NCBI RefSeq assembly: GCF_014644415.1 | Contig: NZ_BMKQ01000001.1 | Span: 1,788,861 to 1,852,860, forward strand | Reading direction: 5' to 3' | Length of the DNA: 64,000 bases | Source: Marmoricola endophyticus | GTDB taxonomy: Bacteria; Actinomycetota; Actinomycetes; Propionibacteriales; Nocardioidaceae | Shown: piece after piece, positions 4,803 to 60,991 of the stretch | Layout of the letters: each line of letters opens with the position of its first letter | Numbering within the stretch: position 1 is the stretch's first letter | Made by a program: the position numbers and the translations under genes | Notes under the pieces: generated by a model | The model's database searches: none | Seen by the model: only the letters and a program-made list of their open reading frames with translations | Told to the model about the DNA's origin: nothing

Positions 4803-6157
4803 TCGGCGCGACGCGCCTTGCCCATGTCGTCCCGGAGCCGGCTCGTCGTCTGCTGCCAGGTCGCCGGACGCTGCACCTCGAGCAGCCGCCCGGCGGCCCA
4901 GACCCCGATGTCGGCGAGGTCCTCCGGCGCCGTCTCGACGACGGCGTGGACCTGCCCGGACCTCTCGACGACCAGGCAGGAGCGCACTGCCGGGTGCCGC
5001 TCGATCACGCCCTCGACGTCGGCCGGCCAGACCGTGCCGTCCGGCGTCCGGACGGCGTCCTCGAGCCGGTCGCCGAGGAAGAGATAACCCTGCTCGTCGA
5101 GGTGACCGGCGTCGCCGAGCGTGTGCCAGCCGTCGCGCACCACCGGTTCAGCGCCGAGGTAGGAGTACGTCTCCCGGTCGCGCCGCATCAGCACCTCGCC
5201 GGTCTCCCCGAAGCCGCACCCCGTCCCGTCGGCACGGACCACCCTCAGTCGCGTGCCGCCCGTCGGCCGCCCGACCGAACCGGGGTGTGCAAGCCACTCC
5301 TCGCCCCCGATGCAGGTCAGGCCCTGCGACTCGGTGCCGGCGTACACCTCCACGACCCGCTCCGGCCCGAGCCACCCCAGCCACTCCCGCTTCAGCCAGG
5401 GCGGGCAGCGGGCCCCCAGGTGCAGCACCGACTCCAGCGAGGACACCTCGGCCGAGGCTCGTCGTGGCGAGCGCCAGACAGCGAGCATGCTCGTCGGGGA
5501 CAGCAGTCCCCACGTGACGTCGTGGGTCTCGACCAGCCGCAGCCACTCAGCCGGGTCGAAGGCCGTCATCAGCACCAGCGTGTGACCGCACATCAGCCCC
5601 CGCATCGCGTACGTGAACGGTGCCGCGTGGTGCAGCGGCGCCGCCACCAGCTGGACGGCGTCGCGGGGGACGAACGCCGCCGGGGAACGGTCCGGGTCCC
5701 ACGTGGCAGGCGCCGCTGCGCGGACGATCTTCGGCCGCCCCGTGCTCCCGGAGGAGGTGGGCGCCTTCCAGCAGGAGGCGGCCAGGTCGGGCAGCTCGGC
5801 GCACGGCGGCAGGTCGTCGACCAGCGGCGGGTCGTGGTCGACGAGGAGAGGGGCGGCGGCGAGCTCGAGCACGTCGCGTCGTTCCCCCTCCGGCAGCGAC
5901 GGCGGGACCGGCTGCGGCGTGGCCCCGGCTCGCCAGGCCGCCACCGCCGCGACGACGAACCCGATCCCACTCTCGAGCACGATGCTCACGTGGTCGTCGA
6001 CCGCGAGCCCGCCGCGGCGCCAGTGCGCGGCGAGCCGCCGCGTCCACTCCCCCAGCTCGCGCCTGGTCAGCGCGGCCCCGCCGCAGCGCACGGCCACCCG
6101 GTCCGGGTCGCGCCGCTCGAGCTCGTCGAGCGCGGCAGCGATGGTCGTCTCGCTCAC
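4790..6157 (-). CDS. AMP-forming acyl-CoA synthetase/ligase family protein
   Basis: This 455-residue member of the ANL superfamily activates a carboxylate as an acyl-adenylate and usually passes it to CoA. Core motifs are in order: TSSGSTGRPKIV (P-loop A3, about residue 135), VYAGTESQG (A5), HTLGDAGHLDEQGYLFLGDR (A7-A8 with the hinge Asp), and DDMGKARR with the catalytic A10 lysine close to the C terminus. It is shorter than typical fatty-acyl ligases and closer in length to o-succinylbenzoate-CoA ligases, but no men genes are near. It diverges from the Nit1C cluster across a 120-132 base gap. The substrate is unknown. Confidence 0.85.
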   Translation of the reverse strand: MSETTIAAALDELERRDPDRVAVRCGGAALTRRELGEWTRRLAAHWRRGGLAVDDHVSIVLESGIGFVVAAVAAWRAGATPQPVPPSLPEGERRDVLELAAAPLLVDHDPPLVDDLPPCAELPDLAASCWKAPTSSGSTGRPKIVRAAAPATWDPDRSPAAFVPRDAVQLVAAPLHHAAPFTYAMRGLMCGHTLVLMTAFDPAEWLRLVETHDVTWGLLSPTSMLAVWRSPRRASAEVSSLESVLHLGARCPPWLKREWLGWLGPERVVEVYAGTESQGLTCIGGEEWLAHPGSVGRPTGGTRLRVVRADGTGCGFGETGEVLMRRDRETYSYLGAEPVVRDGWHTLGDAGHLDEQGYLFLGDRLEDAVRTPDGTVWPADVEGVIERHPAVRSCLVVERSGQVHAVVETAPEDLADIGVWAAGRLLEVQRPATWQQTTSRLRDDMGKARRAEWRG

Positions 6158-44475: not shown

Positions 44476-44561
44476 GTGACCAGGATAGTCGACCCTCCGA
44501 CTGCACATTTCGGCTTCCCCGGGGTGAGGTGGTCCTCCACCCGGGTGAGGAGACTGTGCGG

Positions 44562-45341
44562 GTGCCCGAGCTGCCCGAGGTCGAGTCCGCACGGGCGGTG
44601 ATCGAGGCGTACGCGCTGCACCGCGCGATCGAGGCGGTGGACGACACCGACACGTACGAGTGCCGCCCGCACGAGCCGGGCGAGATCGCGAGCGCGCTGG
44701 TCGGACGTCAGCTCTCGGCGGCGCACCGGCGTGGCAAGACGATGTGGTGCACCACCTCCCGCGGCGGGCCCGACCTGGGCATCCACCTCGGGATGAGCGG
44801 CCGGATCGTCATCGAGGACCAGGAGGGCGGCGACCCTCAGCGCGGGACGGCCCGCAAGGAGGAGTGGTACCGCTTCTCGCTGACCTTCGAGGGCGGCAGC
44901 CGCCTGCGCCTGCTCGACAAGCGACGGCTCGGACGCGTCCGGCTCGACCCCGACCTGTCCGACCTCGGTCCTGACGCGGCCGAGGTGGACCGGGAGGACT
45001 TCCGCTCACTCGTCGGTCGCGGCACCGCACCGCTCAAGGCCCGGCTGCTGGACCAGTCGACGCTCGCCGGCATCGGCAACCTGCTGGCCGACGAGGTGCT
45101 CTGGCAGAGCCGGCTGGACCCGCGCCGACCCGCGGGCTCCCTCTCGGCCGACGAGCTGGACGGTCTGCGCCGGCGGTTGCGGTCCTCGATCCGCTCGGCG
45201 GTGCGCCACGGCGGTGTGCACACCGGCGAGGTGGTGCCGCACCGGGCCCGTGACGGGCACTGCCCCCGCTGCGGTGCGGAGATGGCGCGGGGCACCGTCG
45301 GCGGGCGCACGACGTACTGGTGCCCGGTCGAGCAGGCCTAG
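44562..45341 (+). CDS. Fpg/Nei family DNA glycosylase with a three-cysteine finger
   Basis: This 259-residue base-excision repair protein starts MPELPEVESARAVIE, giving the Pro2 nucleophile and Glu3 acid of the Fpg family. HLGMSGRIVI and the H2TH-region LDQSTLAGIGNLLADE follow. The C-terminal finger has CPRC and, 16 residues on, WCPVEQA: spacing as for CX2CX16CX2C but with Glu in place of the last Cys. It may bind zinc with that Glu or have a weakened finger. GTG 44562 is fixed by the Pro2 rule. Stop codons of this gene and the VOC gene overlap in CTAG. Confidence 0.88.
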   Translation: MPELPEVESARAVIEAYALHRAIEAVDDTDTYECRPHEPGEIASALVGRQLSAAHRRGKTMWCTTSRGGPDLGIHLGMSGRIVIEDQEGGDPQRGTARKEEWYRFSLTFEGGSRLRLLDKRRLGRVRLDPDLSDLGPDAAEVDREDFRSLVGRGTAPLKARLLDQSTLAGIGNLLADEVLWQSRLDPRRPAGSLSADELDGLRRRLRSSIRSAVRHGGVHTGEVVPHRARDGHCPRCGAEMARGTVGGRTTYWCPVEQA

Positions 45342-45766
45342 AGCTCCTCGGCGAGCATCACGATGATGCCGCTGGGGCCACGCAGGTAGCTCAGCCGGTA
45401 GACGTCCTGGTAGTTCGCCACGCCGCGCAGCGGGTGGCAGCCGTGCCGGGCCGCGACCTCCAGCGCGGCGTCGATGTCGTCGACGGCGAACGCCACGCGG
45501 TGCATCCCGATCTCGTGCGGCCGCGTCGGCTCGGTCTCGATCGCGTCGGGGTGGAGGTACTCGAACAGCTCGAGCGTGCCGGAGCCGTCCGGCGTCTGCA
45601 GCATCGCGATCCTGGCGTGGTTGCCGTCGAGGCCCACCGCCGTGTCGGCCCACTCCCCCGAGATCTCGTCCCGGCCGACCACCGTGAGCCCGAGGTCGGT
45701 GAAGAAGGCGACCGTCTCCTCGATGTCACGGACCGCGATCCCGACGTTGACGAGAGAGATGGCCAT
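45338..45766 (-). CDS. VOC (glyoxalase/dioxygenase superfamily) protein
   Basis: This 142-residue protein has two beta-alpha-beta-beta-beta modules: LVNVGIAVRDIEETVAFFTD at the start and MHRVAFAVDDIDAALEVAAR in the second half, with GTLELFEYL as the module-ending acidic strand. His in MHR and Glu in LELFE are candidate metal ligands, as in methylmalonyl-CoA epimerase-like VOC proteins. The first-strand ligand is not evident (LVNV rather than LxHV). The reaction is unknown. The gene is 33 bases downstream of acylphosphatase on the same strand. Confidence 0.85.
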   Translation of the reverse strand: MAISLVNVGIAVRDIEETVAFFTDLGLTVVGRDEISGEWADTAVGLDGNHARIAMLQTPDGSGTLELFEYLHPDAIETEPTRPHEIGMHRVAFAVDDIDAALEVAARHGCHPLRGVANYQDVYRLSYLRGPSGIIVMLAEEL

Positions 45767-45799
45767 GACCGCGACGCTACCGAGGCGAACGGCCCCACG

Positions 45800-46075
45800 T
45801 CACTGCTCGACCCGGAACTCCCTGGCACCGCTCGCCGGCACCTCTGCGACCTGGACGTCGTCCACCCGTGCTCCGCTCGGCCCGCCCCGGCACCACTCCA
45901 CCAGCGCGCCGACGGCGTCGCGCTCGCCCTCGGCGCGGGCGGTCACCGCGCCGTCCGGCTCGTTGCGCACCCACCCGGCGACGCCCAGCCGCTGCGCCTG
46001 CTGCTGGCAGGAGTAGCGGTAGGACACCCCCTGCACCCGGCCGGTGATCCGCAGGTCGACGGCGTACTCGCTCAT
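45800..46075 (-). CDS. acyP: Acylphosphatase
   Basis: This 91-residue cytoplasmic enzyme hydrolyses acyl phosphates. The active-site loop reads RVQGVSYRYSCQ with the catalytic Arg, and the second motif VAGWVRNEPDGAV supplies the catalytic Asn. The length is exactly that of the family. ATG 46075 follows a gap with 21-base tandem repeats. The VOC gene follows and may be co-transcribed. Confidence 0.93.
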   Translation of the reverse strand: MSEYAVDLRITGRVQGVSYRYSCQQQAQRLGVAGWVRNEPDGAVTARAEGERDAVGALVEWCRGGPSGARVDDVQVAEVPASGAREFRVEQ

Positions 46076-46106
46076 CGACCCAGCACATCACGGCTCGCAC
46101 CCGCCG

Positions 46107-46274
46107 GGTCGAGTTGCGGGTTCTGCAGGGTCGAGTTGCGGGTTCTGCAGGGTCGAGTTGCGGGTTCTGCAGGGTCGAGTTGTGGGTTCTGCGGGGTCTA
46201 GCTGCGGGGCCGCGTGCCCGACCTGCTGGTCGTACGACACGAGGCACCACTCGCGCCGGCAGAACCCGCAACTC
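46107..46274. repeat. 21-base tandem repeat with an inverted copy, between purB and acyP
   Basis: Four consecutive copies of GGTCGAGTTGCGGGTTCTGCA start at 46107, 46128, 46149 and 46170 (the last with two changes), followed by a decayed fifth near 46191. CAGAACCCGCAACTC at 46260-46274 is the exact reverse complement of the unit core, so the RNA can fold into alternative hairpins. All frames stay open because 21 is a multiple of three, but nothing suggests coding. It fills most of the 239-base gap 46076-46314. Confidence 0.9.
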
Positions 46275-46314
46275 ACGCCTGCAGGAGGCGCAGCTCAACG
46301 GGAAGGGGGCGCGA

Positions 46315-47730
46315 CTAGAGGATCGCGGCGGGGGTGTAGCGCGCGGCCTCGGGGTCGGCGTCGGTCACGGCCTCGACGCTGCGGCACACCTGCTCGACCT
46401 GGGCCCGGGCGGCGCCGGTGAACTCGATCGGCTCGGCGACCAGCCGCTCCAGCGCCGCCTCGTCGAGGCCGAGCCGCTCGTCGGCACCGAGGCGCGCCAG
46501 CAGGTCGTTGTCCGGGCGGCCCTGGCGCATCTCCAGCGCGACCGCGACCGCGTGCTCCTTGATCGCCTCGTGCGCGGACTCGCGACCCACCCCCGCGCGG
46601 ACAGCCGCCATGAGCACCTTCGTCGTCGTCAGGAAGGGCAGGTACCGGTCCAGCTCCCGCTGCACCACCGCCGGGAACGCACCGAACTCGTCGAGCACGG
46701 TGAGGAAGGTCTGGAACAGCCCGTCACAGGCGAAGAAGGCGTCCGGCAGGGCCACGCGTCGTACGACGGAGTCGGAGACGTCACCCTCGTTCCACTGGTC
46801 GCCGGCGAGCTCGCCGAGCATCGCCAGGTTGCCGCGCAGGACGACGGCGAGGCCGTTGACCCGCTCGCACGAGCGGGTGTTCATCTTGTGCGGCATCGCC
46901 GACGAGCCGACCTGGCCCTCCGCGAACCCCTCGGTGACCAGCTCGTTGCCCGCCATCAGCCGGATCGTGGTGGCCAGGTTCGACGGTGCGGCCACCGTCT
47001 GCACCAGCGCGGAGACGACGTCGAAGTCCAGGGAGCGCGGGTAGACCTGGCCGACGCTCGTCAGCACCGCCTCGAAACCGAGGTGCTCGGCCACGCGGCG
47101 CTCCAGCTCCGCGAGCTTCTCTGGATCGCCGAGCAGGTCGAGCATGTCCTGGGAGGTGCCCATCGGACCCTTGATGCCGCGCAGCGGGTAGCGCGCCAGC
47201 AGGTCGTCGACGCGGGCCAGCGCGACCAGCAGCTCGTCGGCGACCGTGGCGAAGCGCTTGCCCAGGGTGGTCGCCTGCGCGGCCACGTTGTGCGAGCGAC
47301 CCGCCATCACGGTGGACTCGTGCTCGGCCGCCAGCCGGGCCAGGCGGGCCAGCGTGGCGACCACGCGGGTGCGTACGAGCACCAGCGACTGGCGGACCTG
47401 GAGCTGCTCGACGTTCTCGGTCAGGTCGCGAGAGGTCATCCCCTTGTGGATGTGCTCGTGGCCGGCCAGCGCGCAGAACTCCTCGATCCGAGCCTTCACG
47501 TCGTGGCGGGTGACCCGCTCGCGCTGCGCGATCGAGGCCAGGTCGACCTCGTCGACGACGGCCTCGTAGTCCTCGACCACGCCGTCGGGCACCTCCACCC
47601 CGAGGTCGCGCTGTGCACGGAGCACCGCGATCCACAGCCGGCGCTCGAGGACGACCTTGTGCTCGGGGGACCAGACCTGCGCGAGGTCGGCGCCGGCGTA
47701 CCGGCTGGCGAGGACGTTGGGGAGGCTCAC
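46315..47730 (-). CDS. purB: Adenylosuccinate lyase
   Basis: This 471-residue fumarase/aspartase-superfamily enzyme acts twice in purine synthesis, splitting SAICAR and adenylosuccinate. KGMTSRDLTENVEQLQVRQS, GRSHNVAAQATTLGKRFA and the signature loop SSAMPHKMNTRSCERV, carrying the catalytic Ser, are present. GTG 47730 begins VSLPNVLASRY as in relatives; an upstream open frame is not conserved. It lies 22 bases downstream of purD on the same strand, so it ends the purA-reductase-purD-purB operon. A repeat region follows the stop. Confidence 0.96.
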   Translation of the reverse strand: MSLPNVLASRYAGADLAQVWSPEHKVVLERRLWIAVLRAQRDLGVEVPDGVVEDYEAVVDEVDLASIAQRERVTRHDVKARIEEFCALAGHEHIHKGMTSRDLTENVEQLQVRQSLVLVRTRVVATLARLARLAAEHESTVMAGRSHNVAAQATTLGKRFATVADELLVALARVDDLLARYPLRGIKGPMGTSQDMLDLLGDPEKLAELERRVAEHLGFEAVLTSVGQVYPRSLDFDVVSALVQTVAAPSNLATTIRLMAGNELVTEGFAEGQVGSSAMPHKMNTRSCERVNGLAVVLRGNLAMLGELAGDQWNEGDVSDSVVRRVALPDAFFACDGLFQTFLTVLDEFGAFPAVVQRELDRYLPFLTTTKVLMAAVRAGVGRESAHEAIKEHAVAVALEMRQGRPDNDLLARLGADERLGLDEAALERLVAEPIEFTGAARAQVEQVCRSVEAVTDADPEAARYTPAAIL

Positions 47731-47752
47731 GTGCGCCGAGTCTATCGGCGGG

Positions 47753-48988
47753 TCAGCGGGCGGCGGCGATGTCCGTACGCCACTGGGCGCCGGGGAAGGA
47801 GATGCCGCCGACCCCGGCGTAGGCCGCCTCGCGCGCGGCGGCGAGGTCGGCCCCGGTGGCGGTGACCGCGAGGACACGGCCGCCCGCGGTGACCAGCGCG
47901 TCGCCGTCGAGCGCCGTCCCGGCGTGCACGACGTCGACGTCGGGACGCTCGGAGACGGCGTCGGTGCCCACGATGACGTCGCCCTTCGAGGACGACTCCG
48001 GGTAGCCGGCCGAGGCCATCACCACCGCGACCGCGGCACCGTCGCGGAACCGGGGCGGCTCGACCGAGGCGAGGGTCCCGGTCGCGGCGGCGTGGAGCAG
48101 CCCCCCGAGAGGGGAGTCCAGCAGCGCCAGCAGCGGCTGCGTCTCGGGGTCGCCGAAGCGGGCGTTGAACTCGACCACCCGTACGCCGCGCCCGGTGAGG
48201 GCGAGGCCGGCGTACAGCAGCCCGGCGAACGGCGTGCCCCGACGCGCCATCTCGTCCACGGTCGGCTGCAGCACGGTGTCGAGCACGTCGTCGACGAGGT
48301 CGGCCGGCGCCCAGTCCAGCGGCGTGTACGCACCCATGCCGCCGGTGTTGGGACCCTCGTCGTGGTCGTGGATCCGCTTGAAGTCCTGCGCGGGCTGCAG
48401 CGGGTAGACGGTGCGCCCGTCGGTCAGCGCGAACAGCGACACCTCGGCCCCGTCGAGGAACTCCTCGACGACCACCCGCTCGCACGCCGCCGCGTGCGCG
48501 ACCGCCTCCTCCCGGCGGTTCGTGACGACGACGCCCTTGCCGGCGGCGAGCCCGTCGTCCTTCACGACGTACGGCGCCCCGAGCGCGTCGAGCGCGTCGG
48601 CCACCTCCTCGGGTGTCGTGCAGGCCCGCGCCTCGGCGGTCGGGACGCCCGCGGCGGCCATGACCTCCTTCGCGAACGCCTTGGACCCCTCGAGCCGGGC
48701 CGCCTCGCGCGACGGGCCGAAGCAGGCGACGCCCGCGTCGCGCACGGCATCGGCGACCCCGGCGACCAGTGGCGCCTCCGGTCCGATGACGACCAGGTCC
48801 ACGCCCAGCCCCGTGGCCAGCGCGGCGACGGCGGCGCCGTCGAGCGGGTCGACCTCGTGCAGCGTGGCGACCGACGCGATGCCGGGGTTGCCGGGCGCGG
48901 CGTGCACCTCGCTCACCGCGGGATCGCGGACGAGCGCGAGGGCTAGGGCGTGCTCGCGCCCTCCGGGACCGACGACGAGGACCTTCAC
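47753..48988 (-). CDS. purD: Phosphoribosylamine-glycine ligase (GAR synthetase)
   Basis: This 411-residue ATP-grasp enzyme is step two of purine synthesis. It begins VKVLVVGPGGREHALALAL, then VVIGPEAPLVAGVADA, APYVVKDDGLAAGKGVVV (ATP-grasp loop), DHDEGPNTGGMGAYTP and VVEFNARFGDPETQ, all diagnostic. GTG 48988 lies 11 bases after the reductase gene stop. It is full length and cytoplasmic. Placement between the reductase and purB supports a single transcript from purA. Confidence 0.97.
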   Translation of the reverse strand: MKVLVVGPGGREHALALALVRDPAVSEVHAAPGNPGIASVATLHEVDPLDGAAVAALATGLGVDLVVIGPEAPLVAGVADAVRDAGVACFGPSREAARLEGSKAFAKEVMAAAGVPTAEARACTTPEEVADALDALGAPYVVKDDGLAAGKGVVVTNRREEAVAHAAACERVVVEEFLDGAEVSLFALTDGRTVYPLQPAQDFKRIHDHDEGPNTGGMGAYTPLDWAPADLVDDVLDTVLQPTVDEMARRGTPFAGLLYAGLALTGRGVRVVEFNARFGDPETQPLLALLDSPLGGLLHAAATGTLASVEPPRFRDGAAVAVVMASAGYPESSSKGDVIVGTDAVSERPDVDVVHAGTALDGDALVTAGGRVLAVTATGADLAAAREAAYAGVGGISFPGAQWRTDIAAAR

Positions 48989-59632: not shown

Positions 59633-60361
59633 GTGGCTGCTCCGTTCACCGTCGTGCTCACCCCGCTGCTGCTGGGGATCTCCTGGATGGAGCCGGACTA
59701 CCTGCTCGACACGTTCGGCGGCGCACTGATCTGGTTCAGCCTGGCGATCGTCTTCGTGGAGTGCGGACTGTTCTTCCCGTTCCTGCCCGGTGACACGCTG
59801 CTGTTCGCGCTCGGGCTGTTCATCGCCGGCGACCAGATCCACGTGTTCGGCGTCGAGTCGCACCTGGTCGAGCTGATCAGCGCGATGGTGCTGCTGATGG
59901 TTGCCGGCTTCCTCGGCAACGTCGCGGGCTACGAGATCGGGCGCAAGCTCGGCCCGCCGCTGTACCGCCACGACGGACGCATCCTCAAGCGGAAGTACCT
60001 CGACAACACGCGGTACTTCTTCGAGCGGCACGGCAACAAGGCGCTGGTGATCGGCCGGTTCGTGCCGTTCGTCCGCACCTACATCACCCTCGTCGCCGGC
60101 ATCACGCAGATGCAGCGTCGTCGGTTCTTCGTCTGGAGCGCGGTCGGCGCCGTCGCCTGGGTCGTCTCGATCACCCTGCTCGGCTTCTTCCTCGGCCAGG
60201 TCTCCTGGATCGGCGAGAACCTCGACTACGCGATGATCGCGATCGCCCTGTTCACCGTCGTTCCCCTGATCATCGAGGCGATCCGGCACAAGGCCACGCA
60301 CGGCGACGACGACAGTGAGCCCGCTCCCGCCGAGGAGCCGAGCAGCGCCGAGGCGCGCTGA
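59633..60361 (+). CDS. DedA family membrane protein
   Basis: This 242-residue inner-membrane protein has VFVECGLFFPFLPGDTLLFA (the E-x-G-x-x-x-P-x-x-P-G-D motif) and FLGNVAGYEIGRKLG. It also has RFVPFVRTYITLVAGITQMQ (the F-x-R-x-x-P-x-x-R-type loop) and several more helices. DedA proteins act in lipid flipping and membrane homeostasis. GTG 59633 comes six bases after TACCCT, so a leaderless start is possible. A short acidic tail ends the protein. Repeats follow the stop. Confidence 0.92.
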   Translation: MAAPFTVVLTPLLLGISWMEPDYLLDTFGGALIWFSLAIVFVECGLFFPFLPGDTLLFALGLFIAGDQIHVFGVESHLVELISAMVLLMVAGFLGNVAGYEIGRKLGPPLYRHDGRILKRKYLDNTRYFFERHGNKALVIGRFVPFVRTYITLVAGITQMQRRRFFVWSAVGAVAWVVSITLLGFFLGQVSWIGENLDYAMIAIALFTVVPLIIEAIRHKATHGDDDSEPAPAEEPSSAEAR

Positions 60362-60364
60362 CCC

Positions 60365-60462
60365 CACCGCGAGACGTCGCGTGTACGCGCCGCCTCACCG
60401 CGAGACGTCGCGTCTACGCGCCGCCTCACCCCGAGACGTCGCGTCTACGCGACGTTTCGGGG
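60365..60462. repeat. Three 31-base direct repeats ending in a hairpin terminator
   Basis: Copies begin CACCGCGAGACGTCGCGTGT at 60365, and with minor changes at 60396 and 60427. Only the third copy changes after TACGCG, into GACGTTTCGGGG, which makes a long hairpin: ACGTCGCGT-CT-ACGCGACGT extended outward by CCCCGA/TCGGGG. It fills the gap between convergent dedA and pyrE genes and ends at the pyrE stop, so the last copy probably terminates transcription. Confidence 0.85.
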
Positions 60463-60463
60463 T

Positions 60464-60991
60464 TCAGGCGCGGGCGGAGGCCAGGTCGGCCCTGGTGAGC
60501 ACCGGGCGCACCTCGAGCCGTACGTCCGCCAGCGGGTTCTCCCCGGCCGGGCTGCGGTCGATCGCGCAGACGACGGTCTCGACGACCGCGCCGGCCTCGC
60601 GCAGCGCGTTCGTCGCGTCGCGGACGGCACCGCCGGTGGTGACGACGTCCTCGACCAGCGTGATCCGGCGGCCCTCGACGGACGGCCCCTCCGCGAGCTT
60701 GCAGGTGCCGTACTCCTTGGCCCTCTTGCGTACGAACAGCGCCGGCAGCCCGACCCGCGCGGCCAGCGTCGTGGCGATCGGGATGCCCCCCATCTCGAGC
60801 CCACCGAGCAGCTCGGTGCCCTCGGGCACGAGGTCGACCATCGCGTCGGCGACCCGGGCGAGGAGCGCCGGGTCGGACTCGAAGAGGTACTTGTCGAAGT
60901 ACTCGTGCGAGGTCTGCCCCGAGCGCAGCGTGAACTCGCCGGTCAACCGGCAGCAGGCGTCGATGTCGCGGGCCAGGGTGGGGTCGCTCAT
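60464..60991 (-). CDS. pyrE: Orotate phosphoribosyltransferase
   Basis: This 175-residue PRTase transfers the ribose phosphate of PRPP to orotate in pyrimidine synthesis. FTLRSGQTSHEYFDKYLFES is the start of the fold, FVRKRAKEYGTCKLAEGP the flexible loop lysines, and ITLVEDVVTTGGAVRDA the PRPP-binding motif with two acidic residues. ATG 60991 gives a family-typical length. It is monofunctional, without an OMP decarboxylase fusion. It diverges from the dapC-like gene and ends at the repeat hairpin. Confidence 0.95.
   Translation of the reverse strand: MSDPTLARDIDACCRLTGEFTLRSGQTSHEYFDKYLFESDPALLARVADAMVDLVPEGTELLGGLEMGGIPIATTLAARVGLPALFVRKRAKEYGTCKLAEGPSVEGRRITLVEDVVTTGGAVRDATNALREAGAVVETVVCAIDRSPAGENPLADVRLEVRPVLTRADLASARA

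Follow-up and report, generated by a model that had tools for sequence, protein, structure and literature searches.

The purB-acyP gap of Marmoricola endophyticus carries one copy of a dispersed gene-end element built of 22-bp repeats

A two-armed array between purB and acyP

The 64,000-nucleotide stretch of the M. endophyticus genome that we analyzed, referred to as the window, contains purA, purD, purB and acyP, all of which were identified by Pfam and lie on the − strand; an ORF with a RibD_C domain is situated between purA and purD. A repeat element occupies the gap between purB and acyP (Table 1). Its called units begin 17 nt past the purB stop codon and finish 34 nt ahead of the acyP start. 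TRF detected a tandem array at 46106-46208 with a period of 22, 4.7 copies and 93% matches, as well as an inverted period-22 stretch at 46241-46297. A repeat search gave unit spacings of 22, 22 and 22 and inverted arms of 37-63 nt. The original prediction had placed a tandem repeat of four near-identical copies downstream of the purine genes, with a reverse-complement core about 70 bases further on. All of this was borne out except for the period, which is 22 rather than 21. The core GAGTTGCGGGTTCTG is located at 46111, 46133 and 46155, recurs with one change at 46177, and is found inverted at 46260-46274. Three of the four left units are identical over 22 letters, and the first inverted unit follows the fourth direct unit at a step of 56, or 22 + 34.

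Table 1. Features of the purB-acyP gap and its flanking genes (window coordinates)
Feature	Coordinates	Strand	Basis
acyP, acylphosphatase; next gene downstream	45800..46075	−	Pfam
Left arm, four direct 22-bp units CGAGTTGYGGGTTCTGCRGGGT	46110..46197	+	Repeat search, TRF, unit scan
Left-arm unit starts	46110, 46132, 46154, 46176	+	Unit scores 28.0, 28.0, 28.0, 27.1
Weak fifth direct unit CTAGCTGCGGGGCCGCGTGCCC	46198..46219	+	By eye, in register; below unit-score threshold
Central spacer	46220..46231	none	Unit scan
Right arm, three inverted 22-bp units	46232..46297	−	Repeat search, unit scan
Right-arm unit starts	46232, 46254, 46276	−	Unit scores 16.4, 25.0, 20.8
Right-arm outer flank, family consensus GCGCCCCCTnCCCGT before the outermost unit	46298..46312	−	Alignment A1
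purB, adenylosuccinate lyase; the element follows its 3′ end	46315..47877	−	Pfam

Strong folding was predicted for the element as RNA on both the − strand (−115.9 kcal/mol, z −5.3) and the + strand (−131.6 kcal/mol, z −4.8), such that the competing hairpins proposed originally do exist as a physical potential. No canonical intrinsic terminator (a GC-rich stem plus a T run) was found on either strand of 45700-46500, and the Rfam 15 covariance models gave no match over the array in a search of 44500-48000 at E <= 1. The units of this element are contiguous, with a start-to-start distance of 22, and thus lack the unique spacers between repeats that define a CRISPR. The position of the element fits a putative role in ending the purine operon, which is possible. 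A tuning of acyP expression had also been suggested originally and would be conceivable. Elsewhere in the window, a weak match to the L17 ribosomal-protein leader (RF03132) lies within the Fapy-glycosylase gene at 44940-44988 (+); its 28.7 bits fall below the gathering score of 34.9, and the match is probably due to chance.

Dispersal at gene ends and a plan common to relatives

Searching the genome and its relatives revealed that the core and its variants are dispersed and that the plan of the element is common to other species. The 3.66-Mb genome has 7 exact copies of the core, compared with 0 for the reversed-pattern control, while the unit pattern GAGTKGNNNNTTCTGC has 43 matches versus 2 for its reversed form. 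From 43 arms we built a sequence model of 59 positions, which gave 90 matches in this genome, with a best E value of 1.5e-17, and weak matches in the other 23 congeners (best 7.8e-4, at most seven per genome). Altogether, 36 genome regions and the window yielded 39 elements with at least two units, for a total of 175 units. Three regions with weak matches (L139, L156 and L157) contain no element of at least two units and were left out, as was a 31-bp array in the window that has another period. From these data we conclude that the purB-acyP feature belongs to a gene-end element with copies dispersed through the genome.

Both orientations are present in 30 of the 39 elements, and all 30 converge, with direct units first and inverted units second. 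The other 9 have a single orientation. Arms contain 1 to 5 units. Within the outermost left units, positions 1, 2, 4, 16 and 19 (counted from 0) are invariant in 30 of 30 elements, and positions such as 0, 11, 12 and 15 are split about evenly. Neighboring units of an arm resemble each other more closely than expected by chance (p 0.011 and 0.0006), which is what tandem duplication would produce. No link was detected between unit similarity and chromosomal distance (Mantel p 0.60), and spread by neighborhood exchange was dropped for lack of a distance effect.

Two elements also appear to be split. The left and right arms are at 2114-2157 and 3909-3974 of L137, with 1.8 kb of genes between them, and at 6043-6108 and 7115-7180 of L142, with 1.0 kb of genes between them. 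Between the arms that are 1.0 kb apart, a 243-aa ORF lacked any Pfam match at E <= 0.01. Three ORFs were tested between the arms that are 1.8 kb apart: one had no Pfam match, one matched GAF domains and one matched DUF1990. With no transposase among the tested ORFs, an autonomous mobile element between the split arms was rejected. A separate observation concerns arm length. On the higher-coordinate side of dnaA (C1, 2,207,575), all 10 unequal two-armed elements have the longer arm on the left, an excess that was found post hoc (p 0.002), compared with 2 to 2 on the other side. This bias may reflect the direction of replication.

The elements lie between 17 convergent, 21 co-directional and 1 divergent gene pairs, with genes called by a simple codon-usage finder rather than taken from an annotation. 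As background, a 180-kb sample of this genome contained 85 gaps of 50-450 bp, of which 14 were convergent, 45 co-directional and 26 divergent, so that the elements show both a divergent deficit (Fisher p 0.0003) and a convergent excess (Fisher p 0.002). The outermost unit starts −3 to 26 nt from the stop of the upstream gene in all but one of the 21 co-directional elements, the exception being L122 at 96 nt. Where this distance is −3, the called stop codon is the TGA within the TGAG of the unit. We consider the identity and siting of this element family to be well established.

The lettering of the units is private to this species. Pattern GAGTKGNNNNTTCTGC had 2 matches in the other 23 congeners together, and none of the other 340 genomes of the taxonomic family had more than 5, a number reached in G340. 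A two-unit pattern was found neither in genome_contigs, from which records of this or near genomes may have been omitted, nor in viral_contigs. We dropped in part the reading that the element itself is private, because the weak congener matches, when read by eye, showed the same plan in other letters: a 22-bp period, a YGAGTnG core, converging arms and a position at gene ends. Arrays of this construction were seen by eye in, for example, G010, G016, G018, G019 and G023. Three GAGTNG cores with the period left free between 16 and 28 gave 149 matches in the 24 congeners. With the period fixed at 22+22 there were 70 matches in 10 of the 24 (this genome, 19; G018, 14; G006, 10; G019, 7; G011, 6; G023, 6; G015, 4; G016, 2; G004, 1; G010, 1). 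G023 additionally has ten matches with a span of 48, or 21+21, beside a 22-bp array (C1; L289, L291, L292, L294 and L295). In the wider family the three-unit pattern was present in 70 of the 335 genomes, spread over 9 of the 26 genera, counts in which some matches may be coding repeats and for which the control is not independent, as the reversed pattern GNTGAGY also matches true units starting with GTTGAGT. The largest number of matches in one genome was 140, in G246. The remainder of the unit differs by species, being GAGTCGGCSCTTGTGGTGCGCC-like in G246, GAGTTGCCCCTTCCTCACCGTC in G109 and GAGTCGTCACATCTGACCCGTT in G126.

Forty regions from eight other species, picked for holding a three-core match, comprised 22 convergent, 14 co-directional and 1 divergent case and 3 without a call; thus, 36 of the 37 with a callable context were convergent or co-directional. 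Units of both orientations were present in 22 of these regions, which come from seven species and all converge, and the other 18 have a single orientation. In the case of G246, forty regions contained 42 elements, of which 18 were convergent, 17 co-directional, 4 divergent and 1 intragenic, with 2 lacking a call. Only 8 of the 42 have both orientations, all converging, and 34 have one. Array direction in G246 shows no tie to gene direction, and adjacent units are likewise more alike than chance. The recurrence of one plan in other lettering points to a common, so far undescribed kind of gene-end element; no such arrays are described for Nocardioides or Nocardioidaceae in the largely non-subscription literature that we searched.

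Three sites of our elements could be aligned on both flanks in the congener G003. There, the purB-acyP gap carries another array, the L136 site carries another palindromic element (judged partly by eye), and nothing comparable was seen by eye at the L138 site. Three sites are too few to claim conserved occupancy.

Other repeats were observed in similar places. The G003 purB-acyP array (L083 1834-2037) consists of five copies of an unrelated 32-bp unit with inverted copies, and no second cluster of this kind was seen in the 580 kb of G003 that were covered. G003 also contains a perfect palindrome, GGTTTTGCCGGGYRCCCGGCAAAACC, with a T run before the stem and an A run after it; its 12 copies in 580 kb (C19:380001-960000; L158-L166 and L179-L198) lie in 7 convergent, 5 co-directional and 0 divergent gene pairs, compared with 95, 325 and 96 among all G003 gene pairs there. 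The 31-bp array of the window has three copies at 60365-60463 and fills the gap between two convergent genes, a VTT-domain (DedA-like) gene with its stop at 60361 and a phosphoribosyltransferase (pyrE-like) gene with its stop at 60464. In G003, the orthologous gap is short and has no array. These three cases indicate that several unrelated repeat families are found at gene ends of the genus. We also noted tandem GGTTGAGTGGCGCCCGCT-like units of ~18 bp near a run of masked bases in G006 (L098; C7 around 259193), and a 97-bp tandem repeat of 3.1 copies at C1:1919491-1919783 of the M. endophyticus genome.

Arm pairing, helical phasing and possible function

If pairing between the arms were selected, arms of the same element should match better than arms of different elements. 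Outer-outer identity was 15.79 of 22 versus 15.70 when permuted (p 0.40, n=29), and inner-inner identity was 14.66 of 22 versus 14.75 (p 0.66, n=29). Swapping right arms shifted the mean folding energy by ~2 of 93 kcal/mol (p 0.059 for the + strand and 0.135; 10,000 permutations), a weak trend towards arm pairing; an earlier run of 40 shuffles had given 1 of 40 and 2 of 40. The arms of G246 had an outer-outer identity of 14.43 versus 16.53 permuted and an inner-inner p of 0.17 (n=7). Thus, arm identity and arm-swap folding in this genome, as well as the results for G246, do not support a hairpin kept by compensating changes, and there is no clear co-variation between the arms of an element. 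As for the competing hairpins of the original prediction, same-element arms pair no better than mixed arms beyond this non-significant trend.

Across the center of the elements, the start-to-start steps were 23-26 in 16 elements, 33-35 in 8 and 45-46 in 3, the others being 56, 57 and 76. Their circular concentration R at 10.5 bp was 0.88 over all 30 elements, and 0.89 when restricted to the 14 steps above 26. In the seven other species with two-orientation regions (n=22), R was 0.60 at 11 bp and 0.54 at 10.5, compared with only 0.20-0.24 at 9.5-10, and the phases were nearly equal to ours (2.2 and 3.6 versus 1.5 and 2.9). The concentration in G246 was weaker than here (R 0.62 at 10.5, n=8). 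Center spacing therefore moves in steps of ~10.5-11 bp, although the naive Rayleigh p of 7e-11 overstates the phasing because the elements share ancestry and are not independent trials.

We lean slightly towards a model in which the arrays act as phased sites on the DNA rather than through RNA pairing. Each unit would be a putative site, two helical turns long, for a DNA-binding protein that recognizes its sequence and either travels with the lettering of the units or co-evolves with it. Within an arm the units would be copied by tandem duplication, while whole elements would spread as small non-autonomous elements and persist at gene ends only. We infer a binding protein, a boundary function and mobility in this model. 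The bound array might form a boundary at which transcription of the flanking genes is stopped or insulated, a function that we propose tentatively and at somewhat less than an even chance. The entire chain, from dispersed element through phased protein sites and copying to gene-end boundary, is more tentative still. Several points argue against the chain. The period and core could be inherited from one ancestral element that bound no protein, common ancestry inflates the phasing statistic, and arm-swap folding shows its weak trend towards pairing. G246 has 4 of 42 elements in divergent gaps and one within a gene, its array direction is untied to gene direction, and its phasing is weak. In its broadest form, the model would have the whole taxonomic family marking gene ends with phased 22-bp putative protein sites, in which the core and helical spacing are kept and the remainder of the site is rewritten by each species in step with its DNA-binding protein, the array setting a directional boundary to transcription, or to conflict between replication and transcription, with no classical terminator involved. 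We regard this extension as unlikely.

Two other readings are close rivals of phased sites, each of which we consider possible but doubtful. One is a bidirectional RNA hairpin, in which the arms would form a long stem from either side and end transcription without a U run, or would protect the mRNA 3′ end, a role that has been proposed for REP sequences. The position of the elements directly after stop codons is consistent with such a hairpin, as is strong folding on either strand, with an energy of about −93 kcal/mol for the average element. Convergent gaps also have a better mean folding per base, −0.51 here and −0.50 in G003 versus approximately −0.40 to −0.42 for other gaps, and the purB-acyP junction carries another array in G003 and other stem-loops, seen by eye, in G006 and G008. 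U-less stem-loop transcript ends are reported in Streptomyces in the sections of PMC8269248 considered here. However, same-element arms are unmatched beyond the family consensus, unit number is often unequal between arms, and no T run follows the stem. Moreover, a single orientation precludes a long stem in 34 of 42 elements of G246, 18 of 40 regions of the eight species and 9 of 39 elements here.

The second rival is a selfish or neutral miniature mobile element combined with a minisatellite, which would be spread by a transposase, duplicated by slippage and purged outside gene ends. The minisatellite part had been put forward originally, and it fits in part, as the likeness of neighboring units within an arm implies that units duplicate. 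That likeness, which recurs in G246, argues for this reading, as do private lettering in each species with many copies per genome, a patchy distribution among genomes, the missing link between distance and similarity, and a described parallel, BrickBuilt of Porphyromonas (PMC4596501, in the part covered here). By itself, however, a mobile element predicts neither the fixed orientation of the arms, nor center steps of ~10.5-11 bp, nor a conserved core with a changing remainder, and none of the 24 congeners has a Y1_Tnp transposase. Lastly, the identity of three of the four left units in the window does imply a recent local duplication, and yet the original alternative of a neutral duplication restricted to purB-acyP, with a core found only here and no structural conservation, is excluded by the dispersal of the core and its variants in 39 elements of this genome and by the same plan in other species.

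The means by which transcription ends or is insulated in high-GC bacteria without U-run terminators are poorly mapped. A repeat plan that keeps its period, core, orientation and siting while its lettering turns over between species provides natural replicates, since each genome offers dozens of gene ends with the mark and matched ends that lack it. Should the arrays be read by a protein, a pull-down or its co-occurrence with the arrays in the ~70 genomes that bear them ought to reveal it. If no protein does so, the family would be a clean case of a private repeat that spreads only at gene ends.

Relation to known repeats and terminators

Intrinsic terminators of high-GC bacteria that lack a U run, as described in the consulted part of PMC8269248, resemble the present elements in being stem-loops at gene ends with no U run. 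They differ in that they constitute no repeat family, whereas our elements show no clear co-variation of their arms and are commonly one-armed in relatives.

REP sequences and BIMEs share more features with the family. According to the passages of Di Nocera et al. (2013; PMC3733652) covered here, REPs fall into the GTAG and CGTC superfamilies, are dispersed and extragenic, lie mostly in convergent and co-directional gaps downstream of coding regions, are species-specific in some families, and often have units of opposite orientation. The siting is matched here, with 38 of the 39 elements in gaps between convergent or co-directional genes, as well as 36 of the 37 callable regions of the eight other species. 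In contrast, the REPs of that source are palindromes of 20-40 bp, whereas the 22-bp unit is a weak hairpin at best: a single unit folds at −4.5 (+) and −1.5 (−) kcal/mol (z −0.58 and −1.06), with better folding for a pair of units (z −2.4 and −2.7). Our elements also differ in having contiguous direct units of fixed period in two converging arms, and a GAGTnG core for which no GTAG or CGTC tag is described. The RAYT domain (Y1_Tnp, PF01797) was found in 0 of 24 congeners at E <= 0.001, compared with 5 of 14 control genomes, and a RAYT-driven REP was rejected on this ground. A point in common is that, in the same source, CGTC REPs have no dedicated transposase. Since the unit is no stable palindrome and no Y1_Tnp was found in the congeners, we did not file the family under REP. 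The REP passages searched in that paper do not mention Actinobacteria.

The BrickBuilt MITE of Porphyromonas gingivalis consists of contiguous 23-nt tandem units, occurs in ~19 copies per genome, and is always intergenic, with a variable unit number and a limited host range (PMC4596501, in the portion covered here). Contiguous tandem units of fixed length, in variable number and at many intergenic loci, are likewise found in our family. BrickBuilt has a leader and a tail with small inverted ends, and target-site duplications, as described in the same portion, and lies 49-591 nt from coding sequences, whereas the units here are often −3 to 30 nt from stop codons. In our elements, the tandem units themselves are inverted between two arms, and the lettering changes between species while the period and core stay. 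The outer flanks of both arms share a consensus (alignment A1). The element was not filed under BrickBuilt because the orthologous gaps in G003 are too diverged to serve as empty sites for recognizing target-site duplications. Among known kinds, the family is most like REP/BIME in its siting and most like BrickBuilt in being a small dispersed element made of tandem units.
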